A DNA stretch of 64,000 nucleotides. It comes from Cladocopium goreaui (lineage: Eukaryota > Sar > Dinophyceae > Suessiales > Symbiodiniaceae). The position numbers and the translations under genes were made by a program. The DNA lies in assembly GCA_947184155.2 (NCBI GenBank), contig CAMXCT020000468.1, positions 1-64,000 of the forward strand, read 5' to 3'. Below are positions 3,811 to 64,000 of this stretch, piece by piece (position 1 is the first letter of the stretch; every line of letters starts with the position of its first letter). Below the pieces are notes generated by a model. The model was not told where the DNA came from. It was given only the letters and a program-made list of their open reading frames with translations, and ran no database searches.

Positions 3811-3933
3811 TTAGGGCGCCTGGGGCAGGGCGGGCAATAAATGCAGGGAAGGATGCCGAAATGATATCCTTCGCCGCAAACTAAAATATAATTGAGATTT
3901 TCTACATCTGTTTGGGGTCAACGCTGGTATAAT
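3811..3933. repeat. Array-end sequence, copy 1
   Basis: A non-satellite stretch directly after the array, starting at TTAGGGCGCCTGGGGCAGGG and ending at GGTATAAT. It recurs almost unchanged at 12346-12468 (offset 8535), again directly after a satellite block. It contains AATAAA. The pairing shows that array plus tail moved or was duplicated as one unit. Confidence 0.9.
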
Positions 3934-12345: not shown

Positions 12346-12468
12346 TTAGGAGGCCTGGGGCAGGGCGGGCAATAAATGCAGGGAAGGATGCCGAAATGAT
12401 ATCCTTTGCCGCAAACTAAAATATAATTGAGATTTTCTACATCTGTTTGGGGTCAACGCTGGTATAAT
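12346..12468. repeat. Array-end sequence, copy 2
   Basis: Near-identical to 3811-3933, differing by a few bases (AGGCC for GCGCC at its start, TTTGCC for TTCGCC inside). Downstream sequence diverges at once after GGTATAAT, which marks the breakpoint. Confidence 0.9.
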
Positions 12469-21610: not shown

Positions 21611-21845
21611 GTCTCGTACGAAATGCTCGTTTTGGTGCTCCCACGTGTCTCGTCTCGAGTCTCTGGTTTTCCCGTGGCTTCGCCGTGTCTATGGGGGAAG
21701 CTGCAAAACCTGTCCTTTTGTTATGTTGCCAACTGTGAAAATCGCCGGAAGTCTCGTACGAAATGATCGTTTTGGTGCTCCCACGTGTCTCGTCTCGAGT
21801 CTCTGGTTTTCCTGTGGCTTCGCCGTGTCTATGGGGGAAGCTCCG
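21611..21845. repeat. 140-bp direct repeat, about 1.7 copies
   Basis: GTCTCGTACGAAATG starts at 21611 and again at 21751. The copies match through CTATGGGGGAAGCT with two or three substitutions. The second copy runs straight into the pyrimidine-rich satellite. Confidence 0.92.
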
Positions 21846-23723: not shown

Positions 23724-23860
23724 GGTAACAAGGGAACATGTACAAGACTGTTCAAATAAACTATTGCAGAAAGGTATTGTGCGTGACTGCATAACCATGT
23801 GTATTGACATCTGTACCATTAACATACGTGTGAGCATTCGGGTTCGTGGGCTTCATCTTG

Positions 23861-33394: not shown

Positions 33395-34312
33395 CTACCA
33401 AGAAATATCCATCCTCCCAACAACCATGGAAGCACCAGCCGCCCAACTCTCTCCCAAAAAATTCCCAAGCAGCCAATGAGTAGCAGCTCTCCTTTTCATC
33501 TGCCACAGGAAGGTCCGGGCCAAGTCCTCGTCCCCTCCGGCCGCTTCCAACGCCAGCAGACACTCCGCAGGCTCGACCCCTGCGGATGCCAAGCGCTCCA
33601 CGGCATCGTCCAACGCCACGTCGCCCAGGGCCGCGTCGGCGAACAACGGGGTGCCCTCCACGCGCCAGGCGGGGCGGATGGCAGATGGAGCAACATCTGC
33701 AACTTTCTTGGGAGATTCAATTTTTTCAATTGGAACTCCATCTGGATTTGCTGCAACTTCAGCTGATGCTGTGTCAGCTGCAGGTTCAACTGTTGGATCT
33801 TCAGGAAGTTTCTCACTTGTTGCTGCTTCCAGTTCAGTGAACATATCCAGTTCATCATCTTTCGCCGACCGATAAATCACCCTTCCTTCCGGCGCCGGTG
33901 GCAGTGGCAGAAATTCGCGGTCAGGTCCCAGGCCGCCCCAGATCCCATGATCCCAACGGGCGGTGGTGCCTGTGGCGCCTGTGTCGCTTTCCACGGCGGC
34001 CGGTTTGGTCCTGGCGCGCAACGCCGCCGCCGTCATCTGGCGCTTCACCCAGCGTTCCCCGCCACAGGCCGCGCAGTTGTCGGCGGCTTCGGGGTTCAAC
34101 AAGGTGCAGGCGGGACAGGCCCAGCCATCCGCAGGTCGTTTCGGTGCTTCCCGAGGCAGCACCACCACCACCCCAGAGTTGCTGGAGCTCCCAGGGCGTA
34201 GACTGTCACAGGCCAAGCATTTCACGGCTTCCGGAGCGTTCAGCAAGGTACAGGTGGGGCACGGCCAATCAGGGGCCCACGCCAAGTCTTCGTCCAAGTG
34301 AGGCTCTGACAT
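33395..34312 (-). CDS. RanBP2-type double zinc finger, UBA-like protein
   Basis: 305 residues from ATG 34312 (MSEPHLDEDL); the longer frame upstream has no support. Two RanBP2/NZF-type fingers near residues 15-36 and 60-85: WPCPTCTLLN...CLAC and WACPACTLLN...CAAC, both W-x-C-x2-C-x3-N-x6-C-x2-C, a family that binds ubiquitin or single-stranded RNA. An acidic linker follows. Residues about 240-285 (LDDAVERLASAGV, LLALEAAGGDEDLARTFLW) fit a UBA three-helix bundle. A ubiquitin-linked adaptor is likely (inference). The last 20 residues may be unspliced intron. A truncated copy lies at 24712-24900. Confidence 0.7.
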   Translation of the reverse strand: MSEPHLDEDLAWAPDWPCPTCTLLNAPEAVKCLACDSLRPGSSSNSGVVVVLPREAPKRPADGWACPACTLLNPEAADNCAACGGERWVKRQMTAAALRARTKPAAVESDTGATGTTARWDHGIWGGLGPDREFLPLPPAPEGRVIYRSAKDDELDMFTELEAATSEKLPEDPTVEPAADTASAEVAANPDGVPIEKIESPKKVADVAPSAIRPAWRVEGTPLFADAALGDVALDDAVERLASAGVEPAECLLALEAAGGDEDLARTFLWQMKRRAATHWLLGNFLGESWAAGASMVVGRMDISW

Positions 34313-35755
34313 GGCTATGGGTGAAGAAAAGTGGTGGATCAGTGGATCAAGTGGGAAAGTTATTCTGAGGTCATCTTGAACCTGGAACGTTCCTGGCCTT
34401 GGCATATTCTTGACAAACGGTGTCACCTGCGATTTGCACGTTGTTGCACGAATGAAAAACACTTGCAGATGGTTCAATTTGTTCGACCTCTACAGTTATA
34501 TGGGTGTGTCTGAAAATAGAGTACCCCTAAACCCAATGGTTAATGATCATTATCCCTATTAAATGGCTATAATTGGGAATATACCCTATTTTCAAACCCA
34601 TGTGTGTGTGGACGACATTTCGAATGCGCCTGACAATCCAAATCAAAGGATTAAAGCTGGCATTCAAACGCCAGGGTCCGGCACTTGAGCCGATCTCCAG
34701 GTGAGGTGAATAGACATGACAACCCATGTGACTGGTTTCATATCATATAGGCATTGGTCAAAATGTGGTGTCCAACCTGTTGGGCCCAAGGGAGCATACC
34801 TGTTTGCGAATGGATTCAGATGAAGCCTCAAGGTTGAACAACGTGGAGTCTGCACCGCTGGCCACCTTCCTTGGGCAGTATCCCAGCATGACTACGATAT
34901 CCCCAATTGCATCATATCATGCCCATATCGCAGCACAGCTTGCTGTCGCTGACCTATATCACTTGCGACATTGGATGCCCTGAGATCCAATTCTTTCAAA
35001 TTGTCACAGTAGCTGCCAGTATGTTGCAAGACTATGCCAGTTATCGACGCTTGTCTGGTATTGAAAATTGGGATTCGAATCCTAGGTAGCCTGTGGTTCT
35101 GTCATGAAGCAAAGGCGCAAGATGGCGCAAGTACTACACAGTCAGAATGGGAAGAGAATCCTGCAGTGTGCTCTGTGTTTTCAGCCGCTACAACAGCCTT
35201 CATCCGTGAAACATCTTTGTTTGGCCCAGAATTAAGGCCCTACAAGAGAAGCTGTGTGTCTGTTTCACACACAAAATCAGGCTCTTCACCTTCCATCAAC
35301 TCGCCAAATTCGCGCCGTCCTTCAGAAACAGGCCAAATGCACAAAACACGAAATGTCACACGGAAAGCAAAGAACATTTGCACTGATATTGAGTAAAATT
35401 ATCAGTCTCTTCGTTTGGAGTTCAGCAAATCATTGATTCTGTGGTATCTATTCAGCATGAGGAAATAGTCTGGGATGTCCATTCAACATGGCTTTCAATG
35501 GCACTTGGCAGCTTTCAAGACGTTGGCATCCTGTGTCGTTGGACGTCCTCTCGTTTTGGGCACACCTTTGGGTACATGGTTTGAGTTCTACCGTGTAACC
35601 CTCAAAATTAAATCACATTGTTTTGATCTAATCCCATGATATCCCATGTATGTCTATGTGTAAGTATGTGTACATCGATCTAGTCTATGCATCTATACTA
35701 TCTATCCGTTCCGCCACTATCCAATGTTGCTGTGTTTGGGACATCTCGAGGCCCT
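34313..35755. other. Intergenic, with one possible exon
   Basis: Mostly unassigned. On the minus strand, 34920-34804 reads GDIVVMLGYCPRKVASGADS and continues to SESIRKQ, followed by a GTATGC donor. This is plausible as an exon of the downstream zinc-finger gene or of another gene, but no acceptor is clear. Nothing else is supported. Confidence 0.35.
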
Positions 35756-39691: not shown

Positions 39692-39957
39692 AGCCACTCA
39701 GCCACTCAGCCACTCTGGCAGAGCGGCTGACGCAGCCACTCACCCACTCAGCCACTCTGAGTGACTGAGTGGCTGAGTGGCTGGTCCAGCCTCTCTGGCT
39801 GAGTGGCTGAGTGGCTGGTCTAGCCACTCTGGCAGAGTGGCAGATTGGCTGAGTGGCTGCTCCAGCCACTCTGCCGCAGCCACTCAGCCATTCTGGCAGA
39901 GGGGCTGACGCAGCCACTCAGCCACTCTGAGTGACTGAGTGGCTGAGTGGCTGGAGA
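39692..39957. repeat. Left array of a GC-rich palindrome
   Basis: Tandem CAGCCACTCAGCCACTC and CCACTCTGGCAGAGTGG words. The latter is its own reverse complement except for the centre base, so the array is palindromic at several scales. The same family forms the array at 43219-43479 on the other side of the AT-rich island. Confidence 0.9.
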
Positions 39958-43218: not shown

Positions 43219-43479
43219 CTCTGCCGCAGCCACTCAGCCACTCAGCCGCTCTGCCAGAGTGGCTGATGCAGCCACTCAGCCACTCTGCCAGAGTGGCTGG
43301 AGCAGCCACTCAGCCACTCTGCCAGAGTCGCTGACGCAGCCACTCAGCCACTCTGCCAGAGTGGCTGGAGCAGCCACTCAGCCACTCAGCCACTCTGCCA
43401 GCTGCCAGAGTGGCTGGAGCAGCCACTCAGCCACTCAGCCACTCTGCCAGAATGGCTGACGCAGCCACTCTGCCAGAAT
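43219..43479. repeat. Right array of the GC-rich palindrome
   Basis: At least six CCACTCTGCCAGAGTGG palindromes separated by CTGGAGCAG or CTGACGCAG links and CCACTCAG runs. It is the counterpart of 39692-39957. Together they bracket a 3.2-kb AT-rich segment carrying the integrase, and may be its terminal repeats. Confidence 0.9.
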
Positions 43480-46400: not shown

Positions 46401-46724
46401 CATACATACATAACATAACCTTACATTACCTTACCTTACATGACAGTAGATTACATTACATACATTACATACAGTACATACATTACATACACTACACAGA
46501 CTTGCTCAGACGTCTTATCGACTTGTGATGTGGAATGCAACAGTCGTGCAAAAACACCAACAAAACAAATTGACACGATGAGATGAACCAATATATATAT
46601 ATATACCACAGAAGACATTGACAATATAAACCAACAGCGATATACTAGACGTCCCCCCAGCTGCGACTTAAATGCGCCCAGGGGCGGGACAACATGAAAT
46701 ATATAAAGAAGCAGGTACGTTTAC
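43480..46724. other. Intergenic, no gene supported
   Basis: Short frames only. Notable items are an imperfect tandem duplication at about 45415-45575 (ACTGGTTATACAT...AACCCATCCTCCCAAGTGT twice), (TA)n runs near 44898-44950 and 46316-46330, and ACATT/ACATAC simple repeats at 46400-46495. Confidence 0.6.
45415..45575. repeat. Imperfect tandem duplication (about 80-bp unit)
   Basis: Both units contain ACTGGTTATACAT, CATAAACCATTACAAACCCA, CCTCCCAAGTGT and GCTTTCAATAGCA in the same order. Confidence 0.85.
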
Positions 46725-46826
46725 ACAGGTACCCAGAGGGTGTCTTCGTTGGCCACTGACCCCCTAGGAAACCGGTGGCCCCCTGCAAAGAAAGGAAGTC
46801 TTATATCTATACAGATGGTTCACACA
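46725..46826. repeat. Diverged partial copy of the element's terminal repeat
   Basis: GTGTCTTCGTTGGCCACTGA, GCCCCCTGCAAA and ACAGATGGTTCACACACACA align with the last 150 bp of the direct repeat (47242-47361: GCGTCTTCGTTGGCAGTGAT, GCCCCCTGCAAA, TCAGATGTTACACACACACA). It directly abuts the start of the intact repeat, giving a head-to-tail arrangement. Confidence 0.7.
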
Positions 46827-47361
46827 CACACTAGACAAGAATGGATCATTATATGATCCGGCAGGAACTGAATCCTGAAACATGCAGATTAGATACGAAA
46901 CAATGAAATTAACGATGCATCCTACGAATAATAGAAGTTCTCCTGAATGGTTTCCATGGCCAAGATCGTCATCAAAAATAAATAAATCGGCGACGTGGTT
47001 TTGATAAAATAATCCAAATACATCGGCGACATGGTTTCGGCGAATTAATCCAGAGAGTCAAGAATACTGTCGGCGACATGGTTTCGGCGAAAACTGAGGA
47101 AGATTCTGATGCATCTAAACCAAACGTAAATGACCAACAATAATTCCAGATTGCGACAACAGTGCAGCAACATGACAGCTTGTTCAACAGTTCAAACTGA
47201 GTTCTGCAGGTACACACCAGGACGTCTCCCGATGCATCACCAGAGAATGTGGGCGTCTTCGTTGGCAGTGATCCCACAGACTCTGTCACTGCCCCCTGCA
47301 AATGTAAGAAATTAGAACAAAAGAAGTTTTACATCTGTTCAGATGTTACACACACACACAC
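46827..47361 (-). repeat. Terminal direct repeat, 3' copy (pseudo-LTR)
   Basis: Aligns without gaps to 59272-59806 (offset 12445) with one substitution, ending in an (AC)n run that is one unit shorter here. It contains three spaced copies of CGGCGACATGGTTTCGGCGA or variants. It holds no ATG-initiated ORF of significance. A short hairpin CCGC-ATGTA-GCGG follows at 47361-47373. Confidence 0.92.
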
Positions 47362-47466
47362 CGCATGTAGCGGGGTTCGATTTTGGAAGATCATCGCGGT
47401 CGAGGTCGGCAGAACCAATAAATCAAATGAGCCTACACGATGCTATTGTACAGAGCTGCGGTCATT

Positions 47467-48192
47467 TCACTCAGAAGGGAAATTCGCGTCGAGTTGAAGT
47501 ATTTGGATCGCGTCGCGGAAGCTCATGCCTTCAACCGTCCTCCATGTGTCGTTGATTTCTCCAGATGCCATAGCTGCCGTCAAAGTAGCTGAGAGTTGTT
47601 TGGCCAGCTCCTGGATCTTCGTAGTTAGGCGGGGTGCCTCCGTCGGAGAAGTCGTCTCAATGGGAACATTGTGAAAAGGATGGTGCCCATGTACTAGAGG
47701 AATCTCAAAGTGATGGCGCCAATAGTCCGCAGTGCGTAGGGACCACTCCCAATTGCCCGAAAGACCGTAAAAGTAGTGCTCGGGATCACGACATTTGGAG
47801 AGCCCCGACGTGGGGATCTCTTCGATGAATAACTCCCTGGTATTGTTGGAGTGCGTAATGATCTTGAAGTGGATCTGGTGGACCACGCGTGATGAGAAGT
47901 GAGCACGATGGAAGAAGTTGTAGGTAGGACTGGGCTCAGTCGGGAAAGGAACATCAGGAGGTGCAGGGCCTGAGTATGTATCGGTGTGGGACGTAGTTCC
48001 GATGTCGTTGGGTGTAGGGTTGGCTGCCAAAGGTGCCGAGGTGGTCGAGGTCGTAGGGTCAGGGGCAGCAGGATGACATAGTTCAGAAGCCTGGCCGCCT
48101 GACTCTGGTTCAGAGGCTGTGGAAGCGGGTCCACGGTTGGGATTCGAAGGCCAACCCAAGCCAGCCACAGTGGCGTCACGTTTATGCTCCAT
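47467..48192 (-). CDS. Element ORF B2 (module B, second copy)
   Basis: 241 residues from ATG 48192 (MEHKRDATVAGL); the upstream GTG is not needed. A Pro/Thr/Ser-rich N-terminal 95 residues precede a folded part (VHQIHFKIITHSNN, ELFIEEIPTSGL, WSLRTADYWRHHFEIPL). It aligns with ORF B1: VH-I-F-K at the start of the domain, EL-I-E, then LRT-A--WR----(I/V)P. No known family recognised. It is the last ORF before the 3' repeat. Retention of both B copies open suggests the protein matters to the element (inference). Confidence 0.6.
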   Translation of the reverse strand: MEHKRDATVAGLGWPSNPNRGPASTASEPESGGQASELCHPAAPDPTTSTTSAPLAANPTPNDIGTTSHTDTYSGPAPPDVPFPTEPSPTYNFFHRAHFSSRVVHQIHFKIITHSNNTRELFIEEIPTSGLSKCRDPEHYFYGLSGNWEWSLRTADYWRHHFEIPLVHGHHPFHNVPIETTSPTEAPRLTTKIQELAKQLSATLTAAMASGEINDTWRTVEGMSFRDAIQILQLDANFPSE

Positions 48193-48435
48193 GGGTGAAA
48201 CTGTCACAAAATACGTTCAATGCCAAACCCAAAAGCTGAGGACCCATATATATATATGTGCCGAGCGAGAGAATAATAATAGTAATCATCAACGAGAAAA
48301 GCAATGTACGGAACATAAATTGGTGGACCCTGAATCGAGAGGTGAAATCCCAAAGAGTCAGCCGTGTCGATAAAATCTCATGAATGAAAAGAGAAAGAAC
48401 AAGTCGTGCATTTTCCTGTTCAACCGCAAAGCACA

Positions 48436-49029
48436 TCAAGGTAGGATGACTCCAGGGCTAACCTTATGGCATCTCAGACGTAGCACGAAAGGCTGTGAAG
48501 TACCCGGTACGAGCAAGGTGGATTCGATGTAGTTGTACTGCCGGATCCGCCAATCAGGTCGGTATTCTTCCAAAAGCTGCATGACAGTCCAATCATTGGG
48601 AACTTGGAAAGCATCACCTTCCAGATCGCAATAGCGAAACTCCAAATTCGAGGGTTCAAAATGGATGTCACATTGGGTCCTTAATCTTGTTGTGATGGCG
48701 GTACGTAGGTCTCGAATGGGAAGAATGCCTGCTTCGATTGGTTCCAGTTGGCGTGACCAGGTAAAAAGAGCTTCAAGTTCTCCTGCACTAACGTTCTTGA
48801 AATTCGAATTGGCAAGAGCCATGTAAAGATCACGGTCAGGTTCACTACGGTGTGTCAATCCCTGTAAAGGAGAGTAGTCAACTAAAATCAGAACGGGTCT
48901 GTATGGAGGAGGGTCCACATCACCAGGAAGGCCTCGATGTCCAGCAAGCCATGCAGCAGTTCGGGGACCTTGTGGTGTATCAACCCTGGATGTAGCGCGA
49001 TATGGGTGAGGGCGAGAAGAGTGAGCCAT
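48436..49029 (-). CDS. Element ORF A2 (module A, second copy)
   Basis: 197 residues from ATG 49029 (MAHSSRPHPYRATS). After a basic, Pro-rich start comes PPPYRPVLILVDYSPLQ, then RDLRTAITTRLRTQCDIHF, DWTVMQLLEEYRPDWR and a beta-rich end (LLVPGTSQPFVLRLRCHKV). The same landmarks occur in A1 (RPVIFQLDLKPMQ, SDLKTVVTDTLLQRWSIHL, LLDILNWFYPSWK, LQVIPRGHPF). No known family recognised. 244 nt separate it from B2, and B1 lies 150 nt upstream. Confidence 0.6.
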   Translation of the reverse strand: MAHSSRPHPYRATSRVDTPQGPRTAAWLAGHRGLPGDVDPPPYRPVLILVDYSPLQGLTHRSEPDRDLYMALANSNFKNVSAGELEALFTWSRQLEPIEAGILPIRDLRTAITTRLRTQCDIHFEPSNLEFRYCDLEGDAFQVPNDWTVMQLLEEYRPDWRIRQYNYIESTLLVPGTSQPFVLRLRCHKVSPGVILP

Positions 49030-49178
49030 GGCGTCAAGTATCAAGCATGAAGCCCAGGCTGCAACATAGGAATACTATAGAGATCGAAATTAAAAACCAA
49101 AAACATGACAAGGAAGAAGGCGGTGTACACACTAAATGGTCACGAATCGACGTTGAGTCATTTTTTCTTTTTTCTTTT

Positions 49179-49856
49179 TCATTTCGCGAAGTGATGTGGT
49201 GTGTTACACATTGGAGTCAGACATATCCATAGGGCCAGGTTCGTTTGCAGGAAGTGGACAATGTGTATGGTAAGCAGGTGCGGTAGGGGTATTCGAATGT
49301 AAGGTCCGGTGAAGTGTTGCCGATGGTGAGGAAGGTGGTGTAGATCTCCATGGTGGCCAAGATAGAGAAATAGTGGTACCTTGTGAATGGTGTTGAGCCG
49401 AACGTCCCCAGCATGATTGTAAAATGTGAAGCTGACGTTGGTATGTTCGGGATGTGGGAGAACAGGAACAGAAGTTGCCGTAGAGGAGGAGGATGATTGG
49501 ATAGGTACATCATAGTACTGGCGCCAATGGTTAGCCGTAGTGCGCAAGGTGGCACGATCACTGGTGAGGTGCATGTTCTCCAGAAATGTTTCCACTGGTT
49601 TCCACGTTTCAATACCATCTAGTGTCCGTTCCACGATCCAAAGTTCATCAGGACGAGAAGACAAGGGGTAGCTGAGCTTCTTGATAAATATAGAATGAAC
49701 GGTTGTAGAGGTTGGAGTCATTCTGGCTTCCCGAGGAATGTACGATGCCGAAGTAGGATCATCAGGTGGGAGATGTGAATCTGGGCCAGGAATTGATGTA
49801 GGTGAAGAGCGGGTTGACACCAGCCGAAAAGCATCATCAGTCCCGGAGGTCGCCAT
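49179..49856 (-). CDS. Element ORF B1 (module B, first copy)
   Basis: 225 residues from ATG 49856 (MATSGTDDAFRL). A longer frame from ATG 49970 would add a hydrophobic, signal-like stretch (ILYFSLLLFSIW). I reject that start because B2 has none and the stretch lies in the intergenic spacer. The core reads TVHSIFIKKLSYPL, DELWIVERTLDGIE, ATLRTTANHWRQYYDVPI, then FTFYNHAGDVRLNTIH. Function unknown. It pairs with A1 just upstream as A-B. Confidence 0.6.
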   Translation of the reverse strand: MATSGTDDAFRLVSTRSSPTSIPGPDSHLPPDDPTSASYIPREARMTPTSTTVHSIFIKKLSYPLSSRPDELWIVERTLDGIETWKPVETFLENMHLTSDRATLRTTANHWRQYYDVPIQSSSSSTATSVPVLPHPEHTNVSFTFYNHAGDVRLNTIHKVPLFLYLGHHGDLHHLPHHRQHFTGPYIRIPLPHLLTIHIVHFLQTNLALWICLTPMCNTPHHFAK

Positions 49857-50078
49857 GTGCAGAGGCAGTAATATGATATCGAAACGAGCTGAAGCCGAAA
49901 TTCCGTTGAAAGAAGTCCATATTGAAAATAACAACAACGAGAAGTACAATATGGGAACACATGAGAGCATAGGGACTCAAATAAGAGATGGTCAACAGGA
50001 AGACGGAAGATTTCATGATCGGTGCTTTTTTCTTTTCTATAGACGTGAGCGAAGCAGGGTTGTAACTCAAAAGGCTTG

Positions 50079-50724
50079 TCACACGGCAGTCTTCGTGTAT
50101 CGGGTGGCAGTGACGAATGGATGCCCTCGAGGAATCACTTGAAGATGGACGGCGAAGCCCGTGTCTTGCGGATCTGGATGGGGTGTCAGCAACAAAGGTG
50201 AACAGTCACGGGACGTGAAGGCATCTAGATGTTGATGAGTTTTCCATGACGGGTAGAACCAGTTCAAAATGTCCAGAAGAGAATGAGGAAGGTCATCAAG
50301 CATCTGAGCTCCTTGATCCGTGTCGATCATCATGTAAAAGTCCGTCGCCTGTAGGTGTATAGACCATCTCTGTAAAAGCGTGTCCGTTACCACTGTTTTT
50401 AGGTCTGAAACGAAATGACTGCGGGCGTAGTCAGGGTAGATCACCTTGAAGGTCTGGAACAGGCTGTCATATGCTTCAGTGGAGAGGTTGCCCGCGACCT
50501 TGGGGGCCAGGATGTTGTAATATGGGTTTCTGGCTGCCAATTGCTGCATAGGTTTCAGGTCCAATTGGAAAATAACCGGTCGATGGGTTGTAGTAGGCGG
50601 AGGTGCCCGGCCGGGTGGGTGCTGAAAAGGTGAAGAACCCGTAGCGGAAGATGGTGCCCTGGTCGGAGAGCGTGATCGTCGGGTACTGCTGGCAATATCG
50701 GTCCAGGTGGATGCGGAGAGACAT
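50079..50724 (-). CDS. Element ORF A1 (module A, first copy), +1 shift after the start
   Basis: From ATG 50724 the zero frame (MSLRIHLDRYC) ends after 82 residues and shows no likeness to A2. The +1 frame is open from just after the ATG to 50079 and matches A2 throughout: an RS/Pro-rich start (SSTRRSRSPTRAPSS), THRPVIFQLDLKPMQ, SDLKTVVTDTLLQRWSIHL. Dropping one base of the TCTCTCC run next to the ATG would fuse start and body. It is either an inactivating insertion, an assembly error, or a +1 recoding site. Function unknown. Confidence 0.5.
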
Positions 50725-50927
50725 AATAAACGGCTGACAGTGTGTATAAAATGGAGTTTGAAGGTTCAAGTCAATTAACCATGCCGAAAGGGTTAAGACA
50801 GTGAAAAAAGTAGTTCGAGGTGAAGAAATACCTTGACGCCAAGGAAATAGATACACAGGAGGTTGGATATTGAAAATGGTACACGGTGCCGCCGGACGTC
50901 TTTTTCTTGTTTGCACGTCGCAGGTAG

Positions 50928-51560
50928 TCAGCCAAGTCTGTCTTTGATCTTGTTCCACATAGAGCGAACGTCTTCCTCCGATTTGCCCATCTTGGTCGAG
51001 ATCACCCGCCACGAAAATCGAGACTTCTCATCCGCTTTCAAAGTACGAAGTTTCTGTTTGTCTTCAACAGTCCAGATTGACAATGGGCTCGAGGAACGGG
51101 ATCTTGATTTGTCGTGTCGGCGACGACGTTTTGCAGGTACTTTGGGAACTGCTTTGGCCTTTTGTTTGCGGTTCGGAGGTGTTGGAGTGGTGGTTGAGAG
51201 CTTCGAAGGTGCAGGAAGGACTTCAGGTGACGGGGCAGCAACGTGGTGATGTGGTTCAGGAAGGTTGGTTTCCAACAGCTCATCCATAAGTGCCTCTTCC
51301 TCAGCTATGTCCGGTGAAGGGATGTGGGCCGTGTCAATAAAGGCATTGGTCCGGTCCGAGTAGTGCGGTCGTAGCCCATCAGGTTGATTCCATACGTCTG
51401 TGCTGGGAAGAGGTGTGGGTTCAATATTGGGGATGAGAGTAGGTGGAAGTAACGCCATCGCTCGATGTAGTAGGAGGTAAGCATGGTGAACATCATGAAG
51501 AAATTGAAGAAACACCGATTCCTGAATCGGGATTGAAGTTGTAGGAGACGAAGAAGCCAT
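50928..51560 (-). CDS. Element ORF with Myb/SANT-like DNA-binding end
   Basis: 210 residues from ATG 51560 (MASSSPTTSIPIQES), chosen over an upstream TTG. An N-terminal helix (LFLQ-type, HDVHHAYLLLHRAMALL) is followed by an acidic/Pro linker and a basic patch (NRKQKAKAVPKVPAKRRRR). The C-terminal 50 residues read WTVEDKQKLRTLKADE, RFSWRVISTKMGKSEED, VRSMWNKIKDRL, with the three aromatic positions of a Myb/SANT (trihelix-like) helix-turn-helix. It may bind the element's own DNA or chromatin to choose insertion sites (inference). 175 nt separate it from the RT. Confidence 0.6.
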   Translation of the reverse strand: MASSSPTTSIPIQESVFLQFLHDVHHAYLLLHRAMALLPPTLIPNIEPTPLPSTDVWNQPDGLRPHYSDRTNAFIDTAHIPSPDIAEEEALMDELLETNLPEPHHHVAAPSPEVLPAPSKLSTTTPTPPNRKQKAKAVPKVPAKRRRRHDKSRSRSSSPLSIWTVEDKQKLRTLKADEKSRFSWRVISTKMGKSEEDVRSMWNKIKDRLG

Positions 51561-51734
51561 CGCGAAGTGTCGAATAAGGCCCAAGGTATAAATGAAAACG
51601 AGTTTGAGGGTGAGCCAGCTGAAAAATCAATACAACGACAGTTGGTAAAATAAAGTTCTGATAGAAGAGGTGAGACGTCCAGCAGGAAGTGAAACGTGAG
51701 ACGTAAGCAAAAGGTTTCGGGGCTGCAACGGATT

Positions 51735-54414
51735 TTACCACAATGAAGAGGTGTGTAGATATTGACGGATAGGCTTGGCAGCGGCAGCTAAATCGGATTC
51801 GCAAAAGCCTGCTGCTCTGTACAAACGGTGCAATGCGGCAAAACCTCGAGATCGTTCTTGTGCAGGGTGCGAGCATTTGGCGACCAGAAATAATCGTGAG
51901 ACGAAACCCGATAGTTGGACTGCCAGAGGTGATGCGGAGAATGGGGCCATGACCTGGTTGAAGTCGCGCGGAGGGCTGTAGCGAAGTGCGAAAGGTTCGA
52001 ACTCGATGCAAAAGCCCAGGAACTCCTGGTCCGGTTCCGTTTCCAAAATGATGGGGTGGCCGTAGAACTCCGGGTGAAGGAAATTGGCGAAGCAGATTTC
52101 ATAGTCCCACGAAGGATCCGCCAGACACAGTCTATTGTCAACATAGCGAAGGAGGCGAGCTGTAAGATCCATTGTAGTCAGAGTAGTACGGTAGGTTCGG
52201 TACCAGATCTCTTCAGAAAGTGCGACGACCATCATACACAACGCCGGACTCAGCGGGGAGCCCATAGGGGATCTTCAAGGACATAAGGATGATGCGTTCA
52301 ATGTCACGAATGAAAATCTTCCGGGTCACATTGAGTGTACGACACGTGCGGCCTTTGACTACATCGCCTGTGGTATTGCCAGGGGTCGCCTTCACTGAGA
52401 TGATTTCGTCGGGGTCGGTACTCATGAGGGTCGAGAGGAATTGCAGGGTCAGTCGCCAGCTGGCAATGAAGCGGTCAGTGTCAATGCTTGTGAAGAAACC
52501 CGCGAGATCTTGGTTGTGTATGCGCGGAGTAGGGAACGTATCGAAGTCGGTGTCCTTGAGGAGCTTGATGAGGTCGAAGACATCTCCCTTTGCCAGGTTG
52601 TGGGGAAACGCTTGGGGCAATAGGTTGTAGATCAGTTTGGCAATACAGTTCAACATGGGTCGGAAAGGTGCGGTGAAGAAGCTAACAATGGGTCGTCCAG
52701 CTCTGAACTGTTTCTTTCGCTTGGGCAGGACGTAGGCATTCGGTAGATCACGTCCAGCGCCAAGGGCCCATGGGTATGACTTACCAAATTGCTTGTTGAT
52801 CTCGGCGATGGTTTTCTCGATGATGTCACTTGGGCTGTCCTCCAATTTTCGAAACACCAACGGGTCGGCGAAGGTGGTGGTGAGGCACTGGAAGTAAAGT
52901 ACCGGGCAATAGATTCGTAGGGATGTAGCTCGCTTGTCCTCGTTGTGAAAGATGGCGTCGGGAAAGAAGCGTTTGAAGCGTACGATGTCTTTGTGCGTGA
53001 TGTGGTTATGGAGGGCGCGGTAGTGGGAGTGAATAGATTGGTGCCAAAGTTCATCAAGATGTGTTTTTGGTAATGAAGGGAGTGAGTTCCGGGTAGCCCA
53101 TGACCGCAGAGCAAGGCGAAGGGATGTCTGGATTTCTTTGGAGGGTGGGAAAATTTTGTTCTGGAGCGAGCCCGTTGCTATGGATGTGTGCGGGCCTTCA
53201 TCGAAATGTAGGTTGTCGCCCTCCAGGACCAAATGTTGATCAGGTTGGTGGTGATGGCGAGCATGAGGCCGTAGAGCGTCGCAGGCACATTTTGGGGTCT
53301 CGCCGTCAACCCATTTGGTTGCTGCCTCTTTGTGGTTGCACAAGCTGTCCATAACCGACGGGAACTTTGTGAAGACAATCCCGGTGGATGGAGTCTGCAA
53401 GGTGGTGTTGTAGCACTGGGTTCGCTGGACATGAGAAGTGAGCAACTGTCGAAGGTTGCGAGTCCAATTGGGGGCCAGTAGCCATGGTGCACGAAGAGGA
53501 ACCGGTTTTCGAACTCGTTTGGCTTTCCAGAAGGTCAAGGCACGGTCAATGGCATTGATTGCATACGACCTTTGAGGTTCTCCAAGGTTGTTGGCAAGGC
53601 GTCGAATGAAATAGCATCCTTGGGCGCCAGTTTCATTTGATCTGAGTCTCTTCTCCATGTGGAAGCGTCGGATGGAGTTGCTGCCCAAATCCTGAATGAT
53701 CTCCCAAAGTTGTACTCGCCGATGGAAAAGAGGACTATGAAGAGCGCGTCGAAGATGCTGGGGTGTAGATCGCCAACGGAGTTTCCGCCACAAAGAAAAT
53801 GCTCCAAATTGCCGTGAATTGGAAAATTTGGTACGCAAAATGAGTCCCTTTCGGCAATTGAAAAACTGGTAAATGAACGGAGTATTCAATCGAGGTTGCC
53901 ACAGTTGAATTAAGGCTTGTTCCAAAGCCCAAAAGTTGGATTTATTGGTGTAGATCGGGAAAACAGACCACATCCAGAAATTGTCAAATCTGCACCAAAA
54001 CCGTAGGGCAACTTCGGCCAACACGAATTTGTTTTGTTGCACTTGCAAGAATTTCCGATAGCGAGAATGCTCACGGTCCAAAACAAAAGAAGAAGTGGAA
54101 CCCACATAGAACTTTGGTTGGAAATTAGCAATATGGCTGAAGCGTATATACACCGCCTGAGGGTGTTTGAAACATTGGAGGGCGACTGTCAAGTCGTCCC
54201 ACGACGTGCAAAAGAAAATGCTCTGCATCGGAGTGCCTTTCAACAAGGCCTGAAGTTTCGAATTGGCACGTGGATGTAGTAACACATACTGGCCCATCAA
54301 TGCAGTTTGAATCATCCGACAAGCAAAAAAGACATCAACAGAAGGAGACAAAGTGAAAGGGGTCAACAATGCAAGGGTGAGAATACAAGCATGAGCCACG
54401 GCCAAATCTCTCAT
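51735..54414 (-). CDS. Reverse transcriptase with N-terminal GIY-YIG nuclease (+1 junction)
   Basis: Start ATG 54414. Residues about 88-178 are GIY-YIG-like: AVYIRF...KFYVGSTSS (YVGS at 103-106), R114, E165 in WALEQALIQLW, then PRLNTP. A CACDALRPHA...HHHQ cluster may be the zinc-knuckle seen between nuclease and RT in permuted Penelope-like elements. RT follows: LPKRKKQFRAGRPIVSF, motif A NQDLAGFFTSID (634-645), motif B IP/MGSPLSPALC, motif C RYVDNRLCL. The zero frame ends at 52213. Motif B continues in the +1 frame (52265-51735), and skipping T52266 in CCC-T-ATG gives a perfect join and an 892-residue protein. Motif C has YVDN instead of YxDD, so the metal-binding first Asp is kept. The enzyme would nick target DNA and copy the element's RNA there. 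Confidence 0.8.
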
Positions 54415-54459
54415 AATATTGGCTGCTTTTGAGCCTGGTGATTTCAGGTACGAAGCTAG

Positions 54460-55764
54460 TCAGGAGTGCATCAATAACGCCACAGTCATGACCTTAAGGA
54501 CAACCTCGTCAGTCGTAGCCCCTTTGTGCTTGCATGGGTCAATACCCATAGCCACGCTGGCACGTTGGATAGTTTTGGAGGCATCATCGGGTTGGTTTTG
54601 CCACCATTCTTTGACCTTTTCCAAGTTCTTCTCCAAAATGTCCTGTTTGGGCTGGGGCAACTTCAGGTCTTTCAACCATTTCTTGTACTGGGTGTCAGTC
54701 AGCGATGAAGGTTGGTTGTCCACGAGCCATGAGTTAACAGATCCCGGAGAAATCAGCAGGGACGAAGGGTCAAAAGATGTGGAAGCTGCGGGTTGTCCTT
54801 GGAGTGCACGTCCAATCGGTGTCGTGGCCGGTGTAGACCCCTCAGGTGCCATAGAAGGTGACGTGCTGGCGGCCGATTTCATCTTTGCCAATTCCGCTTC
54901 TAGTTCAAGAATGCGTTGTTGGCTAGCCACATCCGCGGATGGTTGAGCAGGAAGCCAAGATTGGAGCAACTGAGCGACGTCTTTGGCCATATTTTGAGTG
55001 GCTTCCTTTTGATTCACACATTGGCCAGCCGAACGAGATCGAAAAGTAGCCAGTTTGTCCAAATCCACATTGCGGGTGCGTAGTTGCGATACCAATTCAG
55101 CAACAAATACTGTAGTGCCTATGTTGTCAAAAGGAAGGACGAAGGTTTCTCGTCCGTATGCAACACGGCGGAGCCAGGTGTTGTGTAAGCCCTGGTACAA
55201 GAACTTCCAGAGTGGGACTTGTAAAGGATCCATACCTTCAATGTCTTTGTAGCTAGAAAATCGACTTTGTCGGATTCTGGAGGGGAAGTCCAAACCATTG
55301 ATCTTGTTGGAGTCGTGGAAGTCGACATCGGGTTTCCATTGGTCAACCGGTGGGATCTCGATCGGCCGACAAGTATAGCCTTCATTGATAGCAGAGCAGG
55401 CGCCTGGGGATGACATAGGTCTCGGCGATCTCGGTGTGAAAGGATGTCGTTGAGGTGCAAAATTGGCGTTGATGGAAGGTTGTTGGGAAAACGTGGGCGG
55501 TGTAGGTGGGAAAGGTGCCGTAGATGGAGTCCATGGTGGGCGTGTTGGGAACGATGCAGATGTAGGTGGCGGAGGCGGTATACCAGCAGGGTTCCAAAGC
55601 GGTCAATGGGTCTGCATTGCGTAGTGCATCGGGCCACGAAACATAGGTACTGTTTGGTGCCAGCCATGTTGATGTCGAGGAGGTGTGCGTGAGCGATCCG
55701 GCTGGGAAGGAGGAATTGCATTCAGGTCAGAGCTATACCGGGAGATCAAATCCTGGGACGCCAT
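54460..55764 (-). CDS. Element ORF3, coiled-coil protein with an in-frame TGA
   Basis: ATG 55764 (MASQDLISRYSSDLN) opens a frame that meets TGA at 55605-55603 (MQTH-TGA-PLWNPAGIPPPP) and then stays open to 54460, 434 codons in all. Sequence on both sides is of one style (Pro/Ser-rich), so the stop looks like a TGG-to-TGA change or a read-through site. The second half has IEGMDPLQVPLWKFLYQ, a predicted coiled coil (ASQQRILELEAELAKMKS) and a C-terminal module (YKKWLKDLKLPQ, VAMGIDPCKHKG). That module also occurs in the decayed element at 62666-62902, so it is a family-wide protein, possibly a nucleocapsid-like partner of the RNA (inference). 46 nt separate it from the RT start. Confidence 0.6.
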
Positions 55765-56114
55765 GATGTAGACGGGAGCCACGAGATGATAGATCAAAAT
55801 AAGCTCGATCAGCCAACTGAAAACTGCGGTAGGGTGAAAAGGTGATACGAAGGTGGCGTACGATCAGAAATGTGTGAAACATGATAAACTGCCCAGGTGT
55901 GTGAAACGTGAGGTGAAAATCGAAGGCAACTCAGAATTCAAATACGATGCGCATGCAGCGATTCACATACCTTTTGATGGAAGAAGTGGCGTCAGTACCG
56001 AATGTCGGGAGAAGCATTGTTACTCCAAAAGAATCGGTCAAGGCCACTAGGCTCACTGGATTGCTGTCGCGGAGTAGTCAACAGTTTGCAAGGTGCTCCT
56101 CAGGGATGAAGTGC

Positions 56115-57137
56115 TTACCAGCGAGATCTGGAGTGGTTGTATGCCGAGGTGCGAGAGCGAGCTTGGCCTTCACGGTGCTGATCTCGAGAGTGGCCTTCGT
56201 GATAGGATGAACGGCGATCTCGACGGTTGTAGGTTGAACTGTCCCAAGAAGGATTGTCATGCCAATGTCGGCGAGCATGATCTGGTGCGGCATGTTCGGT
56301 GGTCTCGCGGTGGCTGGTTGTCACTCGAGAGTCGTCTGGAGGTGGGTCTGAAGGTGCAGGTGTGTCAGCGGTAGGGTCAGGTCGTGTTGGAAGTTCATGA
56401 TCAGCTGGTGTGTTGTCTGATGGTTCATTTGGTGCAACGGCAGTGGGTGGGTTCGTTTCTGCTGCCTGGTGTGTGATCAATCCTGGGAAAACCGAATGAG
56501 TAGAGGCAACATAGCATATTGATGCAGCGCTGGAGTTCATAGCCGTTGCATTGTCTTTGCCCTTGGAGATGCCCTGTAGGTTGCACAAGGGTTGAATTTG
56601 GTCATTTCCTCCAGATAGGGCCCGCATGCATTTGGGAGAGCGACAGATGGCCAATAGGCCAGATGGGTTTTGTCCTTTCCCTATACGGTAGAGCTGGGAT
56701 GTACATAACTTGACAGCATAGCCCGGTAGGTTGTCGATGTCAGGAATCTCAGAGGACATGCCGAAGAACCCGTAACATGGGTATTGAGTCGGATAGCCGG
56801 CTTCGTTTTTTGTCCAAGTTGCCGGGCGAATGCAATCTTCAGCGAGGATCTTGGCAACTGTTTCCCAACTCGTTTTGTGGTAGATCAAATAGGTGCCCGT
56901 GTGCTCGCCACGATAGATCGGTTTCTTGGGCAATCCCGTTGGAACCGTGATGGTCAGCAGGTTCTCTGGCTCGATGTAAAATGCTTTGGTTTGCTTTGCC
57001 AGCTCGATGTCAAGTAATCTGGATTGTGCAAAGGCCCTGGCAATGTTCTTGACGGTGGCTTGACTTGCTTTGATGAAAAATAAGTTGGTTGTTGACGGTG
57101 CGATATGGTTGAGCCAACTAGTTGAACATCTCGTCAA
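56115..57137 (-). CDS. Element ORF2, unrecognised, probably expressed by +1 shift from ORF1
   Basis: The frame opens after a TGA about 50 nt before the ORF1 stop and has no ATG for the first 140 residues, so independent initiation is unlikely. It overlaps ORF1 in the +1 phase. The core reads KPIYRGEHTGTYLIYHKTSW, VAKILAEDCIRPATW, YPCYGFFGMSSEIPD, GLLAICRSPKCM. The YH-TS...IL--.IRP pattern is faintly like ADP-ribosyltransferase folds, but I would not assign it on that. The C-terminus is Pro/Thr-rich, then His/Arg/Ser-rich (SRDQHREGQARSRTSAYNH), suggesting RNA binding. Confidence 0.5.
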   Translation of the reverse strand: MTRCSTSWLNHIAPSTTNLFFIKASQATVKNIARAFAQSRLLDIELAKQTKAFYIEPENLLTITVPTGLPKKPIYRGEHTGTYLIYHKTSWETVAKILAEDCIRPATWTKNEAGYPTQYPCYGFFGMSSEIPDIDNLPGYAVKLCTSQLYRIGKGQNPSGLLAICRSPKCMRALSGGNDQIQPLCNLQGISKGKDNATAMNSSAASICYVASTHSVFPGLITHQAAETNPPTAVAPNEPSDNTPADHELPTRPDPTADTPAPSDPPPDDSRVTTSHRETTEHAAPDHARRHWHDNPSWDSSTYNRRDRRSSYHEGHSRDQHREGQARSRTSAYNHSRSRW

Positions 57138-58740
57138 CGAAGTGATTGAAGAGCTGCATGTTAGACTGGTTCAATGATTGACGTAGGGGTACTGTATAGT
57201 TGGGGTCGAGCTCGGTCAAGCAGCGTACCCTGAGTGGATCATTGGCCGCCTCAACCATTTCGCTGAGGTCGATGTCATTGTTGTCAAACTTTGAGATTGA
57301 AAATGCATCTGTCACCTCTGAGTTTTCGCTGTCACCGTCAGGGACACGAAAGGCAACGGCTCCGAGTGGTGCTGCTGGGTGTGTTGTTGGGTTGGTAGAT
57401 GGTTCAGGTGGTGGTGGTCCAGCGGGAGAAGTGGGTCGAGCTGTGTAGTGGTGGTGGTGGTCGGGATAGTGACTGTTGTTCCATTCGCCCCAGGTGTCAT
57501 CAGCATCCGGTGTGGGGATGAAGGCTGGATTGGATGGACGAGTAGCTGGTCGTAATACGACTTCGCGGCTTCGGGAATGACGACGAGGGGTTCTGGAGCG
57601 TGGTCTAGGGTGAGATCGATGACGGCGAGGAACCACTGGAGAGCGGCGTCTTGGCGGTGATCTTCTTCTGTATGGAGAAGGAGTTCGGCGGTCTTTGTCG
57701 TGTTTCGTTGAAGACCGAAATCGTGGAAGGGGAGAACGAGGTCGAACGGCACGGCGAGGAGAATGTCGACGATGATGTGGTTGTGCAGAAGGTCGACGGG
57801 AGCGTGATCTTGGAGTCCTGGATCGTGGTCTGCGTGTTGGCGATGTTGGAGCATGTAGATGGTGAGGGAGAGAAGTGGCTTGAACAGGGATGATGCGATG
57901 GTCCGGAACTTCAGGTTCGGTGGGTCGTGCTTTCGGTGCAGGTGGAGGCATGGTTGTAGGTAGTGTCGGTGTAGGTAATGGTGTGGGCGGTATGTGGTCC
58001 GGTGCAGGTACATCGTGGTGGAGAAGTAGTTGACGTTGTTCTTGGGCGCGTTGGGAATCCAGAATCATTTGCTGTTGAGCTTGAATAAGACGGACCGATT
58101 CGGCAAGTTGTTGTGTAGTGGAGCCCAGCGCTGCAAGTTCTGGTGAGATGGATGGAGACGGTGCTGTCGTTGGTGCCGGTGGTGTAGCAGGGAGTGAGGC
58201 TTTTGGAGCTGAACGACGTGGTTTGTCAGGTTTCTTGTCGGAGCGAAGCTTTGGGGCGGCCTTAACTGCCGGTGATGGAGGTTCATCGGGAGGAACCATA
58301 GATGCTTCCGTCAATAGTGGAGGGTGAGGGTTGCGAGGTGGGTATGGAGAGCTCTGCAATGGTGTCGGTGGAGTAGTCGATGTAGGCGATGAAGCTGGAG
58401 CAGAATGCCACGCAGTTGGAGCGGTGGGTGCCGTAGGAGTAGTGAAGGCCGGTGGAGCGGTGTGCACCATAGTGGTTTCAGGAGCCATAGGTGTGGGCAT
58501 TGTAGGCACGAGTTGAGGGGCTGGTACCGCATGAGGAGCCGGGGTCAATGATGTAAATGGCAAAGATGGTGTGACTGACGTAGACGGCATGAGTGAAGAG
58601 GACGAAGACCATGTAGGATGTAATGGCGAAGGCTGTCCAAATAAATGCGCGTTGGGCGGTGATTGTGGCCACGTCGATGATGGATTCGTAGGCTGCGGTG
58701 GGGCAGGCCATGACGTCGGAGGAGTAGTCCACGGGTACAT
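57118..58740 (-). CDS. Element ORF1, proline-rich and RS-rich protein
   Basis: 540 residues from ATG 58740 (MYPWTTPPTSWPAPPQ). The first 300 residues are Pro/Thr/Ala-rich and low in complexity, with one helical segment (STTQQLAESVRLIQAQQQM). Residues about 300-410 are an RS domain (SRTPRSRSRRPS, RRRSPPRRRSPVVPRRH). An acidic C-terminal tail follows (DNNDIDLSEMVEAANDPL). It occupies the gag position as the first ORF after the 5' repeat and is probably an RNA-binding or RNP-forming protein (inference). A shorter Pro- then RS-rich frame leads the related element at 62226. Confidence 0.65.
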   Translation of the reverse strand: MYPWTTPPTSWPAPPQPTNPSSTWPQSPPNAHLFGQPSPLHPTWSSSSSLMPSTSVTPSLPFTSLTPAPHAVPAPQLVPTMPTPMAPETTMVHTAPPAFTTPTAPTAPTAWHSAPASSPTSTTPPTPLQSSPYPPRNPHPPLLTEASMVPPDEPPSPAVKAAPKLRSDKKPDKPRRSAPKASLPATPPAPTTAPSPSISPELAALGSTTQQLAESVRLIQAQQQMILDSQRAQEQRQLLLHHDVPAPDHIPPTPLPTPTLPTTMPPPAPKARPTEPEVPDHRIIPVQATSLPHHLHAPTSPTRRPRSRTPRSRSRRPSAQPHHRRHSPRRAVRPRSPLPRFRSSTKHDKDRRTPSPYRRRSPPRRRSPVVPRRHRSHPRPRSRTPRRHSRSREVVLRPATRPSNPAFIPTPDADDTWGEWNNSHYPDHHHHYTARPTSPAGPPPPEPSTNPTTHPAAPLGAVAFRVPDGDSENSEVTDAFSISKFDNNDIDLSEMVEAANDPLRVRCLTELDPNYTVPLRQSLNQSNMQLFNHFVDEMFN

Positions 58741-59271
58741 TGCTCAAGTAAAGAAAACTACAATGGAAAGTCACACGCCAGGATGAACCACAGGATTCAG
58801 CTCCTACACCTACAAATCGTGCGTTGTGCCAATCCAGGCCCGTGTTCCAGTCAGCCACAAGGGCATAAAACGGCATTCAAGTTCCAACGAATTAGATGCA
58901 CAAAATGTTTAACCTCACCAGACAACCATCAAAAGAAAGAAACACCACACCTGAAAGTCGTGTGCCTGCCTGATTCCTGTATCAAATGCTGTAGTCATGG
59001 ATCGTCAAAAGCAGCTGCGAAAAAAGGAGGTTTCTGAAGTTTGGTACGGCATCACAGTTGAAGAGACGCATCGGCGAGTAATCCCTGGGACCACAAGAGC
59101 AGCGGGACAACCTCAAAAGGCTGGAAAACCGCAAGGCTGATTGTTGCCCTTTACTTAGACGAATTAGTAAGTTAAAATGTGTGAATTCAGAATTCAAGAC
59201 TGTCAACACTCACCCTAAAGAGGGTTGCCTCAAATGGCTCCATGGCACCATGTCGGAGCCACCATGGAAAC
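58741..59271 (-). other. Leader between the 5' repeat and ORF1
   Basis: 531 nt with no long minus-strand frame. It probably contains the 5' untranslated region, but no promoter motif could be assigned. Confidence 0.45.
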
Positions 59272-59808
59272 CACACTAGACAAGAATGGATCATTATATG
59301 ATCCGGCAGGAACTGAATCCTGAAACATGCAGATTAGATACGAAACAATGAAATTAACGATGCATCCTACGAATAATAGAAGTTCTCCTGAATGGTTTCC
59401 ATGGCCAAGATCGTCATCAAAAATAAATAAATCGGCGACGTGGTTTTGATAAAATAATCCAAATACATCGGCGACATGGTTTCGGCGAATTAATCCAGAG
59501 AGTCAAGAATACTGTCGGCGACATGGTTTCGGCGAAAACTGAGGAAGATTCTGATGCATCTAAGCCAAACGTAAATGACCAACAATAATTCCAGATTGCG
59601 ACAACAGTGCAGCAACATGACAGCTTGTTCAACAGTTCAAACTGAGTTCTGCAGGTACACACCAGGACGTCTCCCGATGCATCACCAGAGAATGTGGGCG
59701 TCTTCGTTGGCAGTGATCCCACAGACTCTGTCACTGCCCCCTGCAAATGTAAGAAATTAGAACAAAAGAAGTTTTACATCTGTTCAGATGTTACACACAC
59801 ACACACAC
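59272..59808 (-). repeat. Terminal direct repeat, 5' copy (pseudo-LTR)
   Basis: Identical to 46827-47361 except G for A in CATCTAAGCC and one extra AC in the terminal run. It is followed by the hairpin CCCTGC-CGCA-GCAGGG at 59808-59823. Confidence 0.92.
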
Positions 59809-63047: not shown

Positions 63048-63700
63048 TTGCGCTGTGTTGTTTTCCTTCTCCTCATTTGGAATCACAAAAAAGTGGAGGT
63101 CGACCCACGTGTACAGCGGACTCACTTTTTCACAGCACTTGGTGTTGTATGGCGCCAAATCAGGGGCGCTGGAATAGGAAGTCAGATTTCTCCAACACTT
63201 TCGAACTTGGCCGTGACGCTTATCGAGAGACCGTGGAGCAGTACCTATCAAGAAGTTCTGACTCAACCAAATTTTCATCATCTTGCAATCAGGTACGTCG
63301 ACAGCCGTTTTGTCATTGTACAGAAGCACCATCTTCAGGCTCCAGTGTTCAAAGTGTTTACAGACTTGGACTTTTATGGTAGTCCAGTCAAACTGGAGCT
63401 GGTTGCCGACAATTTTACTTCTCGGCTTTTATGTGGATGTTTCTGAAAGAACAATCATTTCAGCCGGAACCCTCCGATTGCGTTTGAGCGGACTGAAGAG
63501 TCGAGCTCATTTAATTCGCAAATATTCATTTCCGTCCTGTCAAGCACAGAGTTCGTTGCACGCACTATCTCGGTTATATGTACGGAAAGGCTTCGCTTTG
63601 TCAGATATTCACAGTGCGTTGTGGCCGACAAATACCAGCGGCGATAGGCCTTTGTGTGTAGGGTCAACCCCTGTTTCCAAGGGATTTGCGAATTTTTCTG
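63048..63700 (+). pseudogene. Reverse transcriptase core remnant
   Basis: VDPRVQRTHFFTALG and WRQIRGAGIGSQISPTLSN give RT motif B (IGSQISPTLS). IRYVDSRFVIV is motif C with YVDS. LDFYGSPVKLELV corresponds to FYGHPIILETE of the intact element. After a +1 shift near 63438 the frame continues as ISAGTLRLRLSGLKSRAHLI and SSLHALSRLYVRKGFALSDI. No GIY-YIG domain or motif A is present upstream, so it is 5'-truncated. Confidence 0.6.
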
Positions 63701-64000
63701 TTTTTCTGTTTTTCAATTTTTCAGTTTTAAGGCAGGGGGTCGACCCACGTGTACAGCGGACTCACTTTTTCACAGCACTTGGTGTTGTATGGCGCCAAAT
63801 CAGGGGCGCTGGAATAGGAAGTCAGATTTCTCCAACACTTTCGAACTTGGCCGTGACGCTTATCGAGAGACCGTGGAGCAGTACCTATCAAGAAGTTCTG
63901 ACCCAACCAAATTTTCATCATCTTGCAATCAGGTACGTCGACAGCCGTTTTGTCATTGTACAGAAGCACCATCTTCAGGCTCCAGTGTTCAAAGTGTTTA
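63099..64000 (+). repeat. Tandem duplication of the RT core, 640-bp unit
   Basis: GGTCGACCCACGTGTACAGC begins at 63099 and again at 63739. The next 260 bp are identical except for T versus C in GAC(T/C)CAACC. The frame of the first unit's tail is in phase with the second unit, so one uninterrupted frame runs from about 63439 to the window edge. Confidence 0.9.

Follow-up and report, generated by a model that had tools for sequence, protein, structure and literature searches.

Target-primed retroelements are mostly held to have one or two open reading frames (ORFs). Craig et al. 2021 reportedly describe the Chlamys and Naiad Penelope-like elements (PLEs) as having one ORF, an N-terminal GIY-YIG endonuclease, a CxC linker, pseudo-long terminal repeats (pLTRs) and simple-repeat insertion sites. 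Canonical Penelope/Poseidon elements have a single ORF with a C-terminal endonuclease, and a hammerhead ribozyme. Terminons, the giant Athena-type PLEs of bdelloid rotifers, are endonuclease-deficient and telomere-associated, reach up to 40 kb and carry exonucleases, lipases and Rep proteins, according to an excerpt of their description (PMC6431247). PLEs had been unreported in TSAR (telonemids, stramenopiles, alveolates and Rhizaria) before a study of Ectocarpus, as stated in an excerpt of the latter (PMC12477816). Here we analyze a 64,000-nt stretch of the dinoflagellate Cladocopium goreaui (assembly GCA_947184155.2, positions 1 to 64,000 of contig CAMXCT020000468.1, our contig C468; hereafter the window), which contains a 13-kb unit of eight genes between direct repeats. 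The unit is real and recurrent in the genome searched (1,165,616,438 bases in 6202 contigs) and is not accidental. We consider it likely to be a multi-gene, endonuclease-bearing Penelope-type retroelement of dinoflagellates, and propose below how it would propagate.

Like Chlamys and Naiad, the dinoflagellate element combines an N-terminal GIY-YIG domain, a CxC linker and a C-terminal reverse transcriptase (RT) with pLTRs and simple-repeat sites, and no hammerhead was found; unlike those one-ORF elements, it has eight genes, spans 13 kb, carries YVDN as RT motif C and resides in an alveolate. Tandem or nested copies, with the next repeat start directly downstream in 4/9 cases by eye, are a further likeness to PLEs with an N-terminal endonuclease. 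RT plus GIY-YIG, pLTRs and tandem arrangement are shared with Penelope/Poseidon, as far as the excerpt of PMC11167929 describes them. With Terminons, in the excerpt describing them, the element shares its size class, its PLE-type RT and a multi-ORF layout that includes coiled-coil and other accessory ORFs; GIY-YIG residues are present here, whereas Terminons lack an endonuclease (PMC6431247), and the telomeric location, hammerhead motifs and host-like enzymes of Terminons were not convincingly found, apart from one weak exoribonuclease match. Terminons are the nearest analogue, the seven extra genes setting the dinoflagellate element apart from Chlamys/Naiad-type PLEs. The first-pass annotation of the window had called the element independently built and analogous to Terminons, a description that holds, given its endonuclease residues and contig-internal (GT)n sites, both unlike described Terminons.

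A recurrent eight-gene unit between direct repeats

The window copy is bounded by direct repeats of 535 bp each (5' repeat, 59272–59806; 3' repeat, 46827–47361; minus strand), which are identical at 534 of 535 positions, as had been claimed, and the minus strand carries the large conserved ORFs that they enclose. A search of the assembly for the repeat, in which 40 of 2254 first-look candidates were scored and 62 matches listed, returned many listed matches in pairs 12–13 kb apart. Thirteen repeat-bearing places were read, the window among them. At nine of them both repeats are present and all eight genes can be matched; several of these copies are frameshifted, and C1547 has a deletion in gene 1. 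In these paired copies the unit measures 12.4–13.3 kb and the direct terminal repeats ~530–580 bp. C4013 holds the gene set as far as its stretch extends, the first part of gene 1 lying beyond its edge, and C4495 (3.5 kb only) holds B2, A2 and the repeat. The order elsewhere, on the same strand as in the window, is gene 1, ORF3, GIY-YIG-CxC-RT, Myb, B1, A1, B2 and A2, all co-oriented, so that the suggested search for further copies with the same ORF order did find them.

Selecting loci by the RT gave the same picture. All 50 places scored out of 1937 candidates cover residues 1–908, 42 of them without an internal stop. ORF3 precedes the RT, and Myb and B1 follow it, at 12/12 RT-selected loci read with 1.5-kb flanks, which reach the inner genes only; three loci read more widely match all eight genes (3/3), with repeats on both sides at two and on the 3' side only at the third (C2224). 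The first-pass annotation had held that the unit would be accidental if genomic RT copies lacked the neighboring ORFs or if the ORFs were separate host genes; instead, the RT keeps its neighbors at every RT-selected locus read with flanks, and the ORFs diverge jointly as a single unit.

Database relatives number 91 for the RT, 161 for A2 and 173 for ORF3 (all for the RT, 120 each for A2 and ORF3 listed). RT identities among them go down to 63%, and one RT relative is named Durusdinium trenchii. Matches to RT and ORF3 fall on same-length database contigs 11 times versus 0.15 expected, and those to RT and A2 five times versus 0.08 (means with jittered lengths); for A2 and ORF3 there is no excess (2 versus 0.65). 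Small contigs of about 0.9–1.8 kb among the listed A2 relatives may resemble single-gene transcripts.

The first-pass annotation had counted nine ORFs; there are eight genes instead, as its ORF1 and ORF2 are one gene. A single open segment crosses their junction in seven of the eight other copies with paired long terminal repeats (LTRs), C1668 among the seven; in the eighth, C89, the frame is the same before and after the junction and shifts ~42 residues into ORF2. The intact product of gene 1 has 863–871 amino acids (aa) in three copies. In the window, its Pro/RS-rich first part (57118–58740), which shares a frame with the second part in other copies, and its second part (56115–57137) are in different frames at the junction. 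ORF3, or gene 2 (54460–55764; 434 aa elsewhere), has a Pro-rich N-terminus, a conserved core and, by eye, a coiled coil; here it contains an in-frame stop after 53 codons (55603–55605). Gene 3 (51735–54414) encodes the GIY-YIG, CxC linker and RT. That RT and GIY-YIG occupy one protein, as annotated, is true of the intact 908-aa relatives, but the window frame itself is broken near 52213–52274. The 210-aa product of gene 4 (50928–51560) has a Myb/SANT-like domain at its C-terminus (Pfam E 0.003, under the cut-off). Four modules complete the set: B1 (gene 5, 50079–50564; 224 aa elsewhere), A1 (gene 6, 49179–49970; about 250 aa elsewhere), B2 (gene 7, 48436–49029; 197 aa) and A2 (gene 8, 47467–48192; 241 aa). 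In the window copy the N-terminus of B1 is in a different frame, the frame changing near its start, and a short stretch missing from A1 alters its C-terminus. Since the window repeats differ at one position only, several of the lesions in gene 1, ORF3, RT, B1 and A1 may predate the jump; they may alternatively be assembly errors.

B1 and B2 are paralogues, judged by their sequence match (BLASTP E 2e-7; hhalign probability 96%), and A1 and A2 are probably so (hhalign E 0.006, probability 6%). Searches of Pfam, NCBIfam, PHROGs and PDB turned up no usable match to the accessory proteins: the best PDB matches of ORF3 and A2 have E 0.33 or worse, and those of the ORF2 half of gene 1 have E 0.08–0.1 over low-complexity sequence. 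A candidate assignment of this half as ADP-ribosyltransferase-like, based on a motif likeness, found no support and was dropped. Pfam scans gave no convincing match to Terminon-type enzymes (exonucleases, lipases, Rep).

The RT protein, a distant lineage and joint divergence

In an alignment of 35 rows, out of the 91 RT relatives, the GIY-YIG positions are well conserved among rows with letters at each site: Y89 (22/22), Y103 (21/22), G105 (23/23), R114 (23/24), E165 (24/25) and N177 (25/27), which would include the catalytic residues. The CxC linker between endonuclease and RT is evident as well (C376 in 31/33 rows, C378 in 33/33), and the alignment also shows conservation of RT motifs A (QDLAGFFTSID) and B (GSPMGSPLSPALC). 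A group II RT profile matched at E 0.001–0.002, far under the cut-off; PDB sequences gave no match to the RT at E of at most 10, and no relative of the RT was found among viral contigs. One of the 35 rows matched the Rv2179c-like exoribonuclease family (E 0.0079), which we took as chance.

A distant lineage carries the same arrangement. With P0063 (44% identical to P0001) as query, 49 of 1887 candidates were scored; they are 48–50% identical to P0063, and 38/49 lack stops. The RT of one such locus, C822, is 47% identical to P0001 (418/898) and also has YVDN. The three distant loci read show the same gene order, with one B-A pair rather than two. Gene 1 matches at 27%, in its second part only, and ORF3 at 37%, each in the two of two loci concerned (for gene 1, those having upstream sequence); Myb matches at 34% in two of three, C605 giving no Myb match at E of at most 1e-3. 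The single B (26–28%) and the single A (23–30%) are present in 3/3, and after A comes a related terminal-repeat start, 91–94% identical over 35–39 bases, again in 3/3. Forty block-shuffled versions of a distant locus yielded no match at E of at most 1e-5. Most simply, the six-gene set would be the older one and the window lineage would have doubled the B-A pair; alternatively, the distant lineage may have lost one pair.

Pairwise divergences of the eight genes correlate across nine copies (r 0.89–0.99, or 0.75–0.98 without C1852, the most divergent copy). Median ratios of nonsynonymous to synonymous substitution (dN/dS), computed from copies with readable frames, whose ends are in some cases extended or incomplete, and with certain pairs near saturation, are 0.23 for gene 1 (3 copies), 0.06 for ORF3 (7), 0.06 for the RT (4), 0.09 for Myb (8), 0.07 for B1 (10), 0.17 for A1 (6), 0.11 for B2 (7) and 0.22 for A2 (9). 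The pairwise range for the whole set is 0.03–0.47, and these values indicate that all eight genes are under purifying selection. The two repeats of an element, gaps left uncounted, are at least 99.8% identical in 5/9 copies and 99.3–99.5% in two; C1852 (97.3%) and C1835 (93.1%) are lower, and the repeats of C1835 may be of different subtypes. The insertions are therefore recent, yet the gene set looks old.

Element ends, insertion sites and proposed propagation

In each of the 11 copies checked, (GT)n opens the element and a CATCTG..CAGATG-type palindrome (varied in C1852) comes next, as in the 5' repeat of the window; the other end is TAGTGTG, joined to a flank beginning with TG. This end is immediately preceded by a hairpin, GGATCATATAATGATCC, and the last 60 bases of the window repeat have a folding energy of -14.2 kcal/mol. 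Upstream 40-base flanks contain an alternating purine-pyrimidine run of at least 8 in 8/11 copies versus 11% of controls (5000 40-mers drawn at random from calm parts of the window); junctions and flanks together show an insertion bias toward microsatellites. The copies lie inside contigs. By eye, another terminal-repeat start lies directly downstream in four of the nine paired copies, including the window, where a diverged one occupies 46740–46826 (minus strand) as a tandem or nested insertion, and C2174 lies behind the end of another repeat; elements thus appear to land beside one another's ends. A possible 8-bp target duplication, GTGTGTGC, seen by eye in C671 and C89, is indistinguishable from the repeat tract. 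C870 and C1835 (L017–L020) have the same downstream flank and different upstream flanks, which may reflect a common insertion, a duplication or an assembly join. Rfam gave no match, hammerhead included, in the window and L009–L012 at gathering scores, and none in window positions 46700–47500 at E of at most 1.

We propose that the element is transcribed from its own terminal repeat and that trans-splicing of the host spliced leader would yield single-gene mRNAs. The 21-base dinoflagellate spliced leader has 172 exact copies genome-wide versus 0 for the reversed control, which marks the genome as a dinoflagellate's; with up to 3 mismatches allowed, it does not occur in the window, so no relic marks the window copy. 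TTTGCAGGGGG, which recurs in the terminal repeat by eye, would serve as trans-splice acceptor. Within the short gap between ORF3 and RT (54415–54462), which C89 and C870 retain, is CAGGCTCAAAAG, a sequence resembling the end of the spliced leader, GGCTCAAG; chance may account for this likeness. The GIY-YIG/RT protein would bind the 3' hairpin of the element RNA and nick a (TG)n tract; through its TG end, the RNA could then pair with the nicked tract and prime reverse transcription in place. A useful parallel is the Poseidon PLE, for which an excerpt describes an internal start at an AC-rich stem-loop (PMC11167929). For the other proteins we can only guess at roles: ORF3, with its coiled coil, and the RS-rich gene 1 product might serve in RNA packaging or export, the Myb protein might tether the complex to chromatin or to the target tract, and the A and B modules might be structural partners.

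A broader view, which we advance tentatively, is that this is an ancient and stable order of multi-gene retroelements in dinoflagellates, with six core genes kept in order across RTs 47% identical, a multi-protein ribonucleoprotein and perhaps an ORF3-built particle, a YVDN RT and spliced-leader expression; it might then represent the first radiation of gene-rich PLEs outside rotifers, lacking recognizable captured host enzymes. A normally one-gene retroelement class appears to have built a large stable gene set there. In a group of protists known for very large genomes, all these genes travel together in many copies, selection acts on them as a unit, and part of the set has been duplicated. 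If true, endonuclease-bearing PLEs extend into alveolates. What keeps the genes together, how (TG)n is chosen and whether a YVDN RT works become testable questions. Titles and abstract openings in the open-licence literature on dinoflagellates, Symbiodinium, PLEs, GIY-YIG and giant retrotransposons describe no such element, which leaves its unpublished status unproven, and 'Penelope' is absent from the main text, as excerpted, of a dinoflagellate genomics review (PMC11453091).

Alternative readings and other features of the window

Membership among the PLEs, as first annotated, is favored by architecture and motifs, because the N-terminal GIY-YIG, CxC linker, RT, terminal repeats and simple-repeat targets fit permuted, Chlamys/Naiad-type PLEs. 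Several observations weigh against our reading. RT motif C is RYVDN, not YxDD, in 22/22 rows with letters; xDN instead of xDD is unusual, GDN being present in some viral RNA polymerases, and catalytic activity with YVDN is possible. Pfam recognizes GIY-YIG in 1/35 RT rows (E 0.19) and RVT_1 in 15/35 at E of at most 1 (best 4.1e-5). The 5' terminal repeat does not diverge with the genes (r 0.17–0.29); terminal repeats therefore seem to be exchanged between copies, and ends and body of the element may be recombined in this way. Single dN/dS pairs reach 0.47 (B2) and 0.41 (ORF3). C4998 and C4666 (L025 848–2588 and L026 2518–4391) have two repeats 1.2–1.3 kb apart, and the stretches of 3.5 and 7 kb read there contain no element genes; they are perhaps solo remnants or short non-autonomous derivatives. 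Finally, (GT)n may be target or element sequence, no empty site having been seen.

The absence of a close match in Pfam, NCBIfam and PDB, together with YVDN, would suit a multi-gene retroelement whose RT belongs to a separate, non-PLE class that converged on an N-terminal GIY-YIG. Such convergence is unlikely, as GIY-YIG position, CxC, RT order, terminal repeats and simple-repeat sites jointly match the features of permuted PLEs. Direct terminal repeats and a multi-gene layout would also fit an LTR retrotransposon, or a pararetrovirus-like element, that had unusual genes and relied on tRNA priming and an integrase-like step; however, the Pfam lists of the scanned proteins hold no integrase, RNase H or protease family, the RT protein bears GIY-YIG residues, and the ends are (GT)n..TAGTGTG, with (GT)n at 11/11 copies and, on inspection by eye, no polypurine tract ahead of the 3' repeat, which makes this origin quite improbable. 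Dinoflagellates have many duplicated genes, and the downstream flank common to C870 and C1835 would fit a host gene cluster with an incidental RT, spread by segmental duplication. We find this hardly credible: apart from that common flank, the flanks read are unlike one another, the unit stops at its repeats, the repeats are near-identical within a copy whereas the genes differ by 10–15% on average between copies, and the RT is full-length at every scored place. A Penelope-type element thus remains our preferred reading.

Outside the element, positions 1–12400 of the window form a long pyrimidine-rich minisatellite of 66-base and 13-base units, CTTGTCTCCCACA in type, with strong strand skew. 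A 14/21-base repeat array at 21800–23760 has the in-frame reading TLHSTLYTP and a GC skew of -0.8. Two diverged minus-strand copies of a gene pair (13213–20074 and 27536–31556; 78% identity over a 300-base stretch, about 11.5 kb apart) encode, both judged by eye, a TPR-like protein and a larger protein with a caspase-like stretch. The protein encoded at 33395–34489 has two CPxCTLLN..CxxC repeats that resemble zinc fingers, by eye of the RanBP2 type. Inverted CAGCCACT repeats (39759–39851 and 43303–43395) surround an AT-rich stretch (GC 0.305 at 40–42 kb), and 63095–64000 holds a sequence of at least 266 bases twice, at 99% identity and 640 bases apart, the second copy running past the window end.

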